Source: Patescibacteria group bacterium
GTDB lineage: Bacteria > Patescibacteriota > Patescibacteriia > UBA9570 > JAHJKD01
Length of the DNA stretch: 53,765 nt
Direction: 5' to 3'
Assembly: GCA_018822435.1 (NCBI GenBank)
Contig: JAHJKD010000038.1
Location: 1 to 53,765 of the forward strand
Below, piece after piece: positions 11,979-22,670 of the stretch. Under the pieces are notes generated by a model. It was not told the origin of the DNA. It searched no databases and was given only the letters and a program-made list of their open reading frames with translations. Made by a program: the position numbers and the translations under genes. Each line of letters opens with the position of its first letter. Position 1 is the stretch's first letter.

Positions 11979-12206
11979 ATGAGCAATTCGGAAATTAAGG
12001 AGCTCTTCGAGCTTGCTCTGGGAGCGGCTCGGAACCGCAATACCCGCAGGGTCGGATCGATTCTCACGACCATCACTTCGGCTGACGAAGAACAACCCCA
12101 CCTCCGCCCTTGGGCAGAAGAGGCTCGGGCCATCTTCAGGAACTGTGAGTCCGGCCAGTGGGAAAGCGCTATTAACCAGATCATGGCAGCCCTTGTCAGG
12201 GTCTGA
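11979..12206 (+). CDS. Small hypothetical protein, accessory island gene 1
   Basis: 75 aa, predicted helical, no signal peptide. A GGGAGG lies 10 nt before the ATG, unlike most genes in this window. Codons are G+C-rich and unlike the AT-rich neighbours. Its end ESGQWESAINQIMAAL resembles KAGHWEQAKQESARIA in the next gene, so the two may share a TPR-like helix-turn-helix repeat. I do not recognise the family. Longer frames over the same DNA (12013-12570 plus strand, 11852-12292 minus strand) are taken as shadows. Confidence 0.65.
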   Translation: MSNSEIKELFELALGAARNRNTRRVGSILTTITSADEEQPHLRPWAEEARAIFRNCESGQWESAINQIMAALVRV

Positions 12207-12220
12207 ATCAAGGAGGCGAC

Positions 12221-12448
12221 ATGCCATACGTATTGCCAAATGGATTCCGGGATCGTCTGGTCATGATCCAGACAGCGCTCAAGGCCGGTCATTGGGAACA
12301 GGCCAAGCAGGAGTCAGCCCGCATTGCGATGATGGAAGCCGAAGTCGAAATCACCTGTCTGGGCAAGATCTGGCCTCAGTCCTGCAATCCGCAAGGCTCT
12401 CGCCGTCTGCTTCAGGAGATTCAATCCATCCTCATGATCAACGGATAA
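12221..12448 (+). CDS. Small hypothetical protein, accessory island gene 2
   Basis: 75 aa, the same length as the preceding gene and 14 nt behind it. AAGGAGG sits 5 nt before the ATG, a near-perfect Shine-Dalgarno match. The sequence is helical with a GxWExA pattern like gene 1, and has two Cys (ITCLGKIWPQSCN). G+C-rich codons again set it apart. The pair probably forms a dicistronic unit acquired from outside. Function unknown. Confidence 0.65.
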   Translation: MPYVLPNGFRDRLVMIQTALKAGHWEQAKQESARIAMMEAEVEITCLGKIWPQSCNPQGSRRLLQEIQSILMING

Positions 12449-12563
12449 CATCTCTCTCTGGGGGCACTATTTCAGTTTCAATGGGACGCTTAATACAATC
12501 ACCGCGTCCTCTAAACACGAAATCTTTCCGCCCCCTTCCCCCATCTGTGGAAAACTTTAAATA

Positions 12564-13129: not shown

Positions 13130-13158
13130 GCCCCTCAAGTGCGGGGCCTTTTCTTTCT
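13130..13158 (+). terminator. Terminator after the accessory island
   Basis: GCCCC and GGGGC stem with an 8-nt loop followed by CTTTTCTTTCT, a U-rich tail. It closes the island before the ligase-peptidase operon. Confidence 0.7.
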
Positions 13159-13176: not shown

Positions 13177-13204
13177 TTGAAATATAATAAAATTATGTTA
13201 TTCT
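13177..13204 (+). promoter_or_regulatory. Possible promoter of the ligase-peptidase operon
   Basis: TTGAAA (13177-13182), 16-bp spacer, TATTCT (13199-13204), with the ATG at 13213 so that the transcript would be nearly leaderless. A TATAAT at 13183-13188 with a poor -35 is an alternative giving an approximately 18-nt leader. Confidence 0.45.
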
Positions 13205-13212
13205 AAGATCTA

Positions 13213-15816
13213 ATGACTAAAATCGAAAAACAAAAATTTACCAAGCTACAACAGCATCTAAAAAAGAATTGGTCTTTTGTTGAAGACGACTACGAAGGTT
13301 GCCGTACTTTAGTTATGATTGCCAGTTTTTCTTTAGATCCTGAAGAACTTCGAAAAGTTTTTGGCATAGAGTTCTACGAGGAACGTTTATTATATTTTAT
13401 CGGCTTATTAAAGAATCCAAATACTAAAATAATATACATTAGTTCTTTAAGGATAGACCCGGTCATCGTCGACTACTATCTTACAATGTATTCCGATTCA
13501 TCATCTCAGAAAAAAGACATGAAATCCCGCCTTGTCATGCTTCAGGCCGGCGACTCCGGCTCTTATCTGGCTTTGACTCAGAAGGTATTAAAAAACAAGA
13601 AGTTAATAAAAGAAATTAAAGACGAGATTCCAAATAAAAAACAAGCCGTATTGCGTTGCTTTAATTCTACGCAAGATGAAGAAGATCTGGCCGTAAAATT
13701 AGGCGTTCCTCTCTTTGCCCCTTCATCCAAACTGGTTCCCTTGGGTTCCAAGTCTGGTTCCCGCGAAACTTTCAAAGCAGCCGGCGTAAAAGTTCCTCCT
13801 GGTGTAGAAAACATCATGAATGAAGACGGTCTTATCAAAGCTTTGCGTAGTATGAAACGCCGCAATCCAAAATTGCAAAAAGTAATTCTAAAATTTAATT
13901 ATAGTTTTTCCGGCGGGGGCAATGCCATTTTAAATGTCGCCAAATTGCCTGGAAAAAAAGAAGAGATTATTAAATATGTTCTTCGCTATTTAAGGCCGAT
14001 AGAAACTGATTTACTGACAAAAAAATATTTAGAAAAATTATTCAAATTTGGCGGTATTGTAGAAGAATGGATGATGGGCGCTAAAACAGACTCACCATCT
14101 GCCCAGTTAAATATTCTTCCCAATAAAAAGGTCGAGCTGATTTCTACTCATGAACAATTACTTGATGAAGAAACTCAGCAAACGTATTTAGGCTGTCGCT
14201 TTCCCGCTAAAAAATCAAATACTAAAGTTATTTCCCAGGCAGGGATGAAGATTGGCAATTACCTGGCAAAGAAAGGTGTGATTGGACGATTTGCGATTGA
14301 CTTTGTCGTGAATAAATCTGGCAACCGGACCGATGTCCGTGCCATTGAAATAAACTTAAGAAAAGGCGGGACTACACATCCGTATTTCATGACCAAGCTT
14401 ATAACAGGAGCTAAGCCGGATAAGAATGGCATGCTTCGTATTGATGGCCGCCGTGTTTTTTATTATGCCTTTGATAATATCAAGCACCCGGAATACGCCC
14501 ATCTTGACGCCAAGACTTTGATCGAGATTGTTCATCAATCTGGCCTAGAATACGATCCAGAAACTCAGACTGGCATAGTCCTGCATCTGCTCGGCGCTAT
14601 TAAAACATTTCATAAATTTGGTGCTGTTTGCATTGCCCGGTCACCCAAAGCCGCCGAACAATTATATTTTTTATTAATAAGAGTAGTTAATAAATACTTA
14701 GAAGAAAAACAGGAAGTCAAAGTCAAAAAAGAAGACACGATCGTCAACAAAAATCGCTTAGTCGAAACATTTGGCAAACTTGTCAGAATAGATAGCCCGC
14801 CCGGAGAAGAAAAATTATTATCAGACGCGCTTTTTGACAAATTTAAATCCCTGGGTTTTAAAACCACTCAGGATGAATTTTGGAATATTTTAGTAAAGAT
14901 CCCGGGCCGTGGTAATATCCCTTTTCTATTATCCGCCCACATGGATGTCGTTCAGCCTTGCCGGAATGTCCAGCCGGTTGTCCGGGGTGATAAAATCATG
15001 TCGGCCGGTGATACTGTTCTTGGTGCTGATGACAAGGCCGCTATCGCTTATATTCTAGAATTAGTAAATATATTAGAGGAACAAAAGATTCCTCATCGTC
15101 CTTTGGAATTACTATTCACAGTACGGGAAGAAACTTTTTTTGGGGGCGTTCTTGATATGGACACAACAAAAATTACTTCACCTATGGGCTATGTCATAGA
15201 CGGGGCCAAAATCGGAGAGATCGATATTTCCGCGCCCTGGCTCATGCATATGAAAATTGAGGTAAAAGGCAAGGCCGCTCACTCTGGCGTAAATCCGGAA
15301 GAGGGCATAAATGCTATTAAGATCGCTTCTGAAGCCATTAGTAAAATTCCTTTAGGCCGCATTGATAGTGAAACCACTGCTAACATTGGCACCATTAAAG
15401 GCGGCCACGCCTTAAATACTGTTCCTAATAAGGTAGAGATAGTGGCTGAAGCCCGCAGCCTCGATCGGAAAAAATTAGAAGAGCAAGTCGAGCGCATGAC
15501 CAAGGCATTTGAAGACGCCGCCGAAAAACACCACGGCATTGTCCAGATCGAAACCAAGATTCCTTATGACGGATATGTCTTTGATAAAGAGGATGTCTTT
15601 ATTCAAAAGACAGCCGACATTATGAAAAAAGCCGGCATCACTCCGGAAGTCAGAAAAGCCATGGGCGGCTCTGATGCCAATGAACTTATTTCCAAAGGCA
15701 TTAAGGTCCTGGACATCGGCACGGGCATGGAAAAACCCCATACTACAAAAGAGTCGATCGCTATACCGGAAATGATAAAAATGGTAAAATTCCTGCTGGA
15801 AGCAGTAAGGATTTAA
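13213..15816 (+). CDS. Fusion of a PGM1-like ATP-grasp ligase and an M20 metallopeptidase
   Basis: 867 aa. Residues 1 to about 500 look like a pre-ATP-grasp plus ATP-grasp ligase: VILKFNYSFSGGGNAIL (ATP Lys and Gly loop), FGGIVEEWM, RFAIDFVV and AIEINLRKGGTTHPY, the last supplying Glu and Asn for Mg. The GGTTHP text is typical of peptide ligases related to PGM1. From about 514 an M20/PepT-like peptidase follows: SAHMDVV, LGADDKAAIA, TVREETFFGG, VIDGAKIGEI, KAAHSGVNPEEG and EKPHTTKE, a complete two-metal site. Joining amide synthesis and hydrolysis in one chain is unusual. The substrate is unknown. It heads a three-gene operon with two membrane proteins. Confidence 0.85.
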   Translation: MTKIEKQKFTKLQQHLKKNWSFVEDDYEGCRTLVMIASFSLDPEELRKVFGIEFYEERLLYFIGLLKNPNTKIIYISSLRIDPVIVDYYLTMYSDSSSQKKDMKSRLVMLQAGDSGSYLALTQKVLKNKKLIKEIKDEIPNKKQAVLRCFNSTQDEEDLAVKLGVPLFAPSSKLVPLGSKSGSRETFKAAGVKVPPGVENIMNEDGLIKALRSMKRRNPKLQKVILKFNYSFSGGGNAILNVAKLPGKKEEIIKYVLRYLRPIETDLLTKKYLEKLFKFGGIVEEWMMGAKTDSPSAQLNILPNKKVELISTHEQLLDEETQQTYLGCRFPAKKSNTKVISQAGMKIGNYLAKKGVIGRFAIDFVVNKSGNRTDVRAIEINLRKGGTTHPYFMTKLITGAKPDKNGMLRIDGRRVFYYAFDNIKHPEYAHLDAKTLIEIVHQSGLEYDPETQTGIVLHLLGAIKTFHKFGAVCIARSPKAAEQLYFLLIRVVNKYLEEKQEVKVKKEDTIVNKNRLVETFGKLVRIDSPPGEEKLLSDALFDKFKSLGFKTTQDEFWNILVKIPGRGNIPFLLSAHMDVVQPCRNVQPVVRGDKIMSAGDTVLGADDKAAIAYILELVNILEEQKIPHRPLELLFTVREETFFGGVLDMDTTKITSPMGYVIDGAKIGEIDISAPWLMHMKIEVKGKAAHSGVNPEEGINAIKIASEAISKIPLGRIDSETTANIGTIKGGHALNTVPNKVEIVAEARSLDRKKLEEQVERMTKAFEDAAEKHHGIVQIETKIPYDGYVFDKEDVFIQKTADIMKKAGITPEVRKAMGGSDANELISKGIKVLDIGTGMEKPHTTKESIAIPEMIKMVKFLLEAVRI

Positions 15817-15819
15817 TTA

Positions 15820-16248
15820 ATGGATTCTAAAAAAGTTAAAAAAGCTTTTAAAGATAGTATATTATCTTTTCAGACCAGCATGCCTATTTTAATAGGCGTT
15901 ATTTTATTGTTAGGAATTTCTGAAGTTGTCATTCCTTCTTCTTATTATCAGAACGTGTTTACCGGCAACAGCCTTCTTGATCCTATCATCGGCGCCACTT
16001 TTGGCTCCTGGTTCGCGGGCAACCCTATCACTGGCTATATCATTGGCGGAGAATTTCTGAACCAAGGCGTTTCCATCGTGGCTGTAGCTGCTTTCCTGAT
16101 GGCCTGGGTTACTGTCGGTGTGATGCAAATGCCGATCGAGATGGCTATTATGGGTCGCAAGTTCACTCTTTACCGGGCGGCCGCTGCCTACATATCTGCC
16201 ATTATAGTCGCCATATTAATTGCTTTATCAGTAAGCGCAGTCACATGA
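15820..16248 (+). CDS. Permease-like membrane protein, half 1 (YraQ/DUF318-like)
   Basis: 142 aa with about four hydrophobic helices and a motif-rich centre, FGSWFAGNPITGYIIGGEFLNQG, then WVTVGVMQMPIEMAIMGRKFTLYR. The conserved Gly/Pro-containing helices resemble one half of YraQ-type (UPF0718) permeases, which are usually about 300 aa in one chain. It begins 3 nt after the fusion gene and overlaps the next gene by 4 nt. It may move the substrate or product of the ligase-peptidase across the membrane. Family assignment is moderate; substrate unknown. Confidence 0.6.
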   Translation: MDSKKVKKAFKDSILSFQTSMPILIGVILLLGISEVVIPSSYYQNVFTGNSLLDPIIGATFGSWFAGNPITGYIIGGEFLNQGVSIVAVAAFLMAWVTVGVMQMPIEMAIMGRKFTLYRAAAAYISAIIVAILIALSVSAVT

Positions 16249-16790
16249 ACGGAAATACCAAACATTATATAAAAACTTATGGCGGCTGGCTTTTTCTCGG
16301 TTGCTGCGTCTTGATTTATATCGGGCTGATGGTTTTTGATACGAATCTCGGCATTCAGGTTTTGAAAAAATTCGGTGCCATCTTATGGGAAATCCTGCCG
16401 GTCATGATCATCGTTGTTCTTTTCGTCTTTTTCTTTAATCTGTTTCTCGACCCGAAAAAAATCTCTAAGTTCTTTGGCAAAAAATCTGGCGCTAAAGGCT
16501 GGACTCTGGCCATTCTCGGCGGCATCCTTTCTTCCGGCCCCGGCTATATGTGGTATCCCATGCTGGAAGACATGCGCAAACGGGGTATGCGTCCCTCCCT
16601 GGCTGTCGCATTTCTATATAATCGTGGTGTCCAGATCCCCCTTCTGCCCATGATGCTTTTCTATTTTGGATTTTGGTTTACCATTTTCATGACAATCTAT
16701 ATGACAATATTTTCTGTAATTAACGGTTTCGCTGTTGAAAAATTAATAGCTTTAAAAAAACCGAAAAAAATCTTTTCCAGAAAAAATTGA
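16245..16790 (+). CDS. Permease-like membrane protein, half 2 (YraQ/DUF318-like)
   Basis: 181 aa, about four to five membrane helices. SSGPGYMWYPMLEDMRKRGMRPSLAVAFLYNRGVQIP parallels the conserved loop of YraQ permeases (Pro, small residues, then a charged kR-G turn and an aFL helix). With the preceding 142-aa protein it probably forms a two-subunit transporter equal to one full-length permease. The 4-nt ATGA overlap shows translational coupling. It ends 7 nt before tRNA-Pro. Confidence 0.6.
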   Translation: MNGNTKHYIKTYGGWLFLGCCVLIYIGLMVFDTNLGIQVLKKFGAILWEILPVMIIVVLFVFFFNLFLDPKKISKFFGKKSGAKGWTLAILGGILSSGPGYMWYPMLEDMRKRGMRPSLAVAFLYNRGVQIPLLPMMLFYFGFWFTIFMTIYMTIFSVINGFAVEKLIALKKPKKIFSRKN

Positions 16791-16797
16791 CCGTCAA

Positions 16798-16873
16798 CGG
16801 AGTGTGGCGCAGTTGGTAGCGCGTTCGCCTGGGGGGCGAGAGGCCGCTGGTTCAAGTCCAGTCACTCCGACCA
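16798..16873 (+). tRNA. tRNA-Pro (GGG anticodon)
   Basis: Acceptor CGGAGTG pairs with CACTCCG, the discriminator is A and CCA is encoded. The anticodon stem TTCGC/GCGAG encloses the loop CTGGGGG, giving anticodon GGG. TTCAAGT is the T loop. It lies 7 nt after the permease gene and is followed by a terminator. Confidence 0.95.
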
Positions 16874-21989: not shown

Positions 21990-22670
21990 ATGCGGTCTGT
22001 TTCATCGATTCTCTGCATTCTGGTCGCATGCGGCCTCTTCACGTCCTGCTCTGCCTACCACAAGACCACGGTCAGTGCCAGGCTCTGTGACAATGCCCTG
22101 TGCCTGAAGCAGGGCCTGCCCACAGAGGCCACGCAGTTCGGCAACTGTTTGCTCCAGGATGACCAGCAAGGTGACATGACCTGGAATGAAGTGGTCTGCG
22201 CGCCCTCACCTGACGAAGCGCCGGCTTTCGAAGGCGAAGCCTTTTCGGCCGTGGTACAGCGCGTTCACGGCGGACCAGTAGACTCGGGAACAAAGCTGGT
22301 TTGTGTTTCGTCTGGCGGTGGTTTGGTTCTGGAATGTTGGCCTTATGATGAGATCAACAAAACCGTGCCCCGGGAGCCAAATTCGTCCGTGATCTACACC
22401 GAGATCCTGGAACCAGGGAAACTTCACCGCCAAGGTGTTTCTACGGCGGTAAACGAGGTATTCGGCTGCACCTTGTTCCCCTCCGGCACTGGTACGTCCT
22501 TCGTCTCCTGCCGAGCCGAAGAAGGAGACGTGATTGTGTTCCAGGCCGAGGTCCTCAAGTTCGGACAGAACTGGACTGAGACCGAGGAAGAAATGTCCGT
22601 AGATTGCTGGGTGGTACTGCCCGGTTACATGATGCGGTGCCATGCCCAGGAAGAGACCAACCCTCCCTAG
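21990..22670 (+). CDS. Secreted lipoprotein of unknown function
   Basis: 226 aa from the ATG at 21990; the ORF track begins 18 codons earlier at a TTG inside the hairpin. AAGGAGGGA precedes the ATG by 4 nt. The signal peptide MRSVSSILCILVACGLFTSCS ends in a lipobox (LFTSC). The mature part has many Cys (VSSGGGLVLECWPYD, FGCTLF, VSCRAEE, VDCWVVLPGYMMRC), suggesting disulfides. G+C-rich codons and the strong Shine-Dalgarno contrast with the flanking ribosomal genes, so it looks horizontally acquired. It interrupts rpsG-fusA. No family recognised. Confidence 0.75.
   Translation: MRSVSSILCILVACGLFTSCSAYHKTTVSARLCDNALCLKQGLPTEATQFGNCLLQDDQQGDMTWNEVVCAPSPDEAPAFEGEAFSAVVQRVHGGPVDSGTKLVCVSSGGGLVLECWPYDEINKTVPREPNSSVIYTEILEPGKLHRQGVSTAVNEVFGCTLFPSGTGTSFVSCRAEEGDVIVFQAEVLKFGQNWTETEEEMSVDCWVVLPGYMMRCHAQEETNPP

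Follow-up and report, generated by a model that had tools for sequence, protein, structure and literature searches.

A single polypeptide joins a BesA-like ATP-grasp ligase to a PepT-like M20 peptidase in one lineage of Patescibacteria

We have analyzed a stretch of 53,765 nucleotides from a Patescibacteria group bacterium (contig JAHJKD010000038.1, in the following "the window") and find that it encodes an 867-aa chain that is a genuine fusion of an ATP-grasp ligase with an M20 peptidase. Both halves belong to known enzyme families; within the reach of our searches, their combination is a new architecture. Among the searched genomes the fusion is restricted to one lineage, and the two half-size permease genes that follow it form a separate, patchily distributed cassette that is unlinked to it. 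For the function of the chain we favor, with about even confidence, a bifunctional soluble enzyme that tethers an amino-acid ligase to a short-peptide peptidase with a housekeeping role, with the permease standing apart. The preliminary description of this DNA had recognized an ATP-grasp ligase with PGM1-like motifs and a complete M20 peptidase in one polypeptide, and profiles, structures and residues bear this out. It knew of no described pathway with this layout, and likewise the titles and beginnings of abstracts that we searched, mostly those of the open literature, hold no description of a chain that joins a ligase to an M20 enzyme. The literature search also returned no paper on a Kerfeldbacteria peptidase.

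The open reading frame starts with ATG and has no internal stops (Table 1). An assembly or frameshift artefact, or a chance read-through, is ruled out, since the full-length architecture recurs in two further genera, which are of the same order but of another family (51% and 49% identity). The fusion, which is old in its lineage, is found in three genera and two families. Between the three fusions the pairwise identities are 51, 48 and 64% for the ligase halves and 53, 50 and 71% for the M20 halves, while the linker keeps only 27-39% compared to the 48-71% of the two domains; dS is saturated between the fusions. In the predicted structure, low pLDDT values start at aa 501, within the linker.

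Table 1. Features of the fusion gene and its surroundings, in positions of the window
Feature	Position	Strand	Basis or remark
Terminator-like hairpin with T-rich tail, closing the unit before the fusion gene	13130..13151	+	consensus match only
Promoter-like hexamers, TG before -10, directly before the start of the fusion	13177..13204	+	consensus match only
Bifunctional ATP-grasp ligase / M20 peptidase fusion	13213..15816	+	single 867-aa ORF, BesA-like and PepT-like profiles
PGM1/BesA-type ATP-grasp ligase half, aa 32-485	13306..14667	+	profile and structure matches
Linker of the fusion, about 26 residues, aa 486-511	14668..14745	+	faster divergence, low pLDDT
PepT-like M20 peptidase half, aa 512-865	14746..15807	+	TIGR01883, 3gb0, metal ligands
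Half-size ArsP_1-like permease subunit A, 142 aa	15820..16248	+	ArsP_1 profile, below cut-off; homologues in 13/13 Patescibacteria cassette loci
Half-size ArsP_1-like permease subunit B, 181 aa	16245..16790	+	ArsP_1 profile
tRNA-Pro(GGG)	16798..16873	+	7 nt after the permease pair

Judged by its sequence and its predicted fold, the ligase half belongs to the PGM1/BesA-type ATP-grasp superfamily. It scores 169.7 bits (E 9e-50) with the NCBIfam model of BesA (NF042917), a score that does not reach the equivalog cut-off of 750, and exceeds the Pfam cut-offs of ATP-grasp_IQCH (PF24923, 88 bits) and PGM1_C (PF18105, 43.6 bits). The closest solved structure by sequence is BesA (8yi6; E 1e-44 over aa 32-482), with which the ligase half shares the EINLRK motif; in the fusion the motif EINLRKGGTTHP spans aa 379-390. 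Six residues (K180, K227, E284, D363, N381 and R383) are invariant across 29 ligase sequences, and position E379 is Glu in 28 of them and Asp in the remaining one. These are presumably the residues that handle nucleotide and metal, roles assigned on the basis of the ATP-grasp fold in general. An AlphaFold2 model of this half reaches a pLDDT of about 90 (blocks mostly 85-97), and a Foldseek search with the model places 8yi6 first (TM 0.86, normalized to target length), followed by ATP-grasp peptide ligases that include 3wvq and 3wvr. The two latter entries are titled 'ATP grasp protein' and are taken here to be PGM1. The nearest ligases are found in Bacteroidota, at about 39% identity.

The M20 half is recognized by the PepT-like model TIGR01883 (307.6 bits, over the cut-off of 274.25) and also exceeds the cut-offs of Peptidase_M20 and M20_dimer. 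It aligns to PepT of B. cereus (3gb0) with an E value of 6e-74. The metal ligands H576, D606, E640, D663 and H843 and the general base E639, matched on the basis of the ligand set described for M20 enzymes (PMC6271292), are kept in all three fusions. A decayed ligase or peptidase half is thus ruled out by the conserved residues. In the structure comparison the PepT structures 3gb0 and 3rza rank next after the ligase matches. This half is poorly modelled, with pLDDT often below 60, because few sequences covered it, and the geometry of the two domains or a channel between them cannot be read from the model. The genome of the window, an assembly that is about 94% complete, has a single M20 match, which is the one in the fusion. 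Since no second M20 enzyme was found in the genome and related genera carry a lone M20 gene in the corresponding place, this half appears to be the order's general short-peptide peptidase.

How widely is the fusion distributed? The order, which is related to Kerfeldbacteria, was sampled with ten genomes. Searches with the M20 half in 191 genomes of the class and with the ligase in 379 genomes of the phylum gave no frame of fusion length besides the three known ones. A scan of 84,980 species returned 59 ligase loci, two of which are known fusions and 57 of which lie mostly in Chitinophagaceae and other Bacteroidota; it used an alignment as the query (a single-protein query gave nothing), and short-pattern searches may overlook diverged fusions. 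The 57 ligases are unfused wherever the end of the ligase is visible, two of them (L087 and L093) running off their contig. Near them, M20 genes were limited to divergent M20 amidohydrolase genes beside three Nonomuraea ligases and a distant match in one further locus (L044). No place in the searched plasmids covered 80% of the fusion. The viral contigs held no relative of it, and a viral origin is ruled out on this ground.

The surroundings of the unfused ligases deserve a separate description. In 19 of the 57 loci (Bacteroidota, L042-L098) the gene of the anhydro-MurNAc kinase AnmK immediately precedes the ligase in the same orientation, at a distance of no more than about 320 nt, and a class-I glutamine amidotransferase gene is divergent to the ligase in four of the 57. 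Both neighbours are possible hints to the role of the ligase. Candidatus Kerfeldbacteria CG15 has a standalone BesA-like ligase (L014:8730-11222), and the gene after it weakly matches class-I glutamine amidotransferases. In another genome (G149, L165:6891-10694) a PGM1-like ligase, an M20 enzyme and a GCS2-like protein are encoded by separate genes in a row, which is an independent association of a ligase with an M20 enzyme.

The history of the fusion can be followed at its locus. In G002 and G008, which represent two genera of the other family, the M20 gene is found alone, downstream of a tyrA-like gene, and the same tyrA-like gene (named by eye in all cases) also precedes the two fusions outside the window. 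A tblastn search upstream of the standalone M20 genes gave no ligase remnant. In the M20 tree the two lone copies are nested among the fusions (order clade 99/98, inner nodes 91/76 and 95/85), and the ligase tree groups the three fusions in a single clade (100/100). The simplest reading of these trees would be one acquisition of the ligase followed by two losses, with moderate support from few genomes and with repeated gain also possible.

By analogy to BesA, the ATP-grasp half would activate a carboxylate with ATP, that of glutamate or of some other small acid of amino-acid or peptide type, and would couple it to an amino acid through the amine of the latter. The M20 half, as a dinuclear-metal enzyme that probably uses zinc, would hydrolyse short peptides. 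The ligase would have been tethered once to the M20 enzyme in the ancestry of the order, and most simply an amino acid freed from scavenged peptides would be passed to the ligase, or recovered from the conjugate that the ligase makes. We infer the activity of both halves, their substrates and the direction of flow, and the halves may be tethered without coupled chemistry.

It is conceivable, if on the unlikely side, that the two halves make and break one and the same bond, the ligase adding an acyl group (e.g. gamma-glutamyl) to protect, store or detoxify an amino acid and the M20 half removing it. The catalytic residues of both halves are intact, and the row of separate ligase, M20 and GCS2 genes in G149 is in line with this idea. 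ATP-grasp ligases paired with M20-type hydrolases are also known: carnosine synthase stands opposite carnosinase (PMC6271292), and in the LysW pathway LysX is paired with LysK, a homologue of ArgE/DapE (PMC10433800). However, the making and breaking of the same bond in one compartment would be futile unless regulated. None of the ORFs next to the fusions was recognized as a carrier protein of the LysW/ArgW kind or as an enzyme, such as a kinase or reductase, that would act between ligation and hydrolysis. Moreover, in two genera the M20 enzyme survives on its own with no ligase, and the M20 half fits PepT-like models best and not LysK/ArgE. It is doubtful that one polypeptide builds and hydrolyses the same conjugate in a self-contained protect/deprotect or storage cycle that became fixed in one order. 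For a signal, a storage compound or a toxin-immunity pair, as had been suggested, we found no evidence.

We also consider it improbable that two unrelated activities with separate substrates were joined by chance and kept for co-expression only. A linker that evolves fast, an M20 tree that implies two losses of the ligase with the M20 enzyme kept, and ligase relatives that are elsewhere almost without an M20 partner would all fit such an event, but the architecture has been retained in two families down to about 50% identity.

The half-permease genes follow the fusion on the same strand after a gap of 3 nt and overlap each other by 4 nt, and our coordinates agree with those given earlier. With the ArsP_1 profile (PF03773, cut-off 32.3) subunit B scores 41.7 bits and subunit A stays below the cut-off with 21.4; both align to the first half of the profile. 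Subunit B shares 37-54% identity with relatives in other families of the phylum. Within the order the pair is present in one of the ten genomes, that of the window, and no permease is found beside the other two fusions. Thirteen other Patescibacteria loci (L123-L135) keep the two-gene layout, and no ligase or M20 gene lies near them. In ten of these a homologue of Nitro_FeMo-Co (PF02579, NifX-like; about 100-150 aa, the identity confirmed by Pfam for two of them) directly follows the pair, and some loci also hold metal genes of the FeoA/FeoB type (by eye) and of the ZIP type (Pfam). No PF02579 match turned up in the window genome, where the pair abuts the tRNA gene without a third gene. That the fusion and the permeases form one system of synthesis and export, or of import and salvage, as the preliminary description had proposed and as the close spacing on one strand might suggest, is very improbable and largely refuted by this neighbourhood comparison, since the permease is absent beside the other fusions and from nine of ten genomes of the order and the pair is unlinked from ligase and M20 genes in the 13 loci found across CPR. 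The same description had named separation of the halves in most relatives, with unrelated neighbours, or loss of catalytic residues, as speaking against its proposal; the halves are indeed separate genes in almost all relatives, whereas no catalytic residue is lost. Judged by its neighbour genes, the permease cassette is probably metal-related, and it appears to have reached the window genome horizontally. Tight gene spacing alone is misleading here, as the adjoining permease is a different module.

Signals around the fusion gene are few. The region holds 14 promoter-like matches, with 8.8 +/- 3.2 expected. A search for riboswitches or other Rfam control elements gave only tRNAs in the window and nothing in L010-L013, and no terminator or repeat is shared around the fusion gene beyond chance. 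The GC content is raised at 12000-12500 (0.55) and 22000-22500 (0.57) of the window, compared to about 0.41, and the ORFs there are without evident family.

The appeal of the fusion lies in its architecture, in which an ATP-grasp enzyme that forms peptide bonds is joined to an M20 enzyme that hydrolyses peptides, in organisms whose genomes are very small. Should the two halves share a substrate, the chain would be a compact natural catalyst for ligation and deprotection, and a clue to how candidate-phylum bacteria use scavenged amino acids.

Several known systems can be compared with the fusion. Carnosine synthase with carnosinase and LysX with LysK are encoded by separate genes and belong to other subfamilies on both sides, so that they serve as analogy only. 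The ArsP_1 / UPF0718 permeases (PF03773), whose profile both half-permeases match, subunit A below the cut-off, are here split into two half-size genes, and elsewhere the pair is usually accompanied by a Nitro_FeMo-Co gene. With PGM1, the peptide ligase of pheganomycin, the ligase half has the PGM1_C domain and a structural match (TM 0.76-0.79) in common; however, the identity is 16-18%, and no precursor peptide or pheganomycin genes were noticed. BesA, the L-propargylglycine--L-glutamate ligase (8yi6), is closer, with the same ATP-grasp fold and a nearly full-length alignment, yet the identity in the structural alignment is 27% and the ligase half stays far below the equivalog cut-off. Unlike BesA, the ligase half is fused to an M20 enzyme. 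The PepT-like M20 peptidases (TIGR01883; 3gb0, 3rza) match over their full length and have all metal ligands in common with the M20 half, which here forms the C-terminal part of a chain that begins with a ligase.
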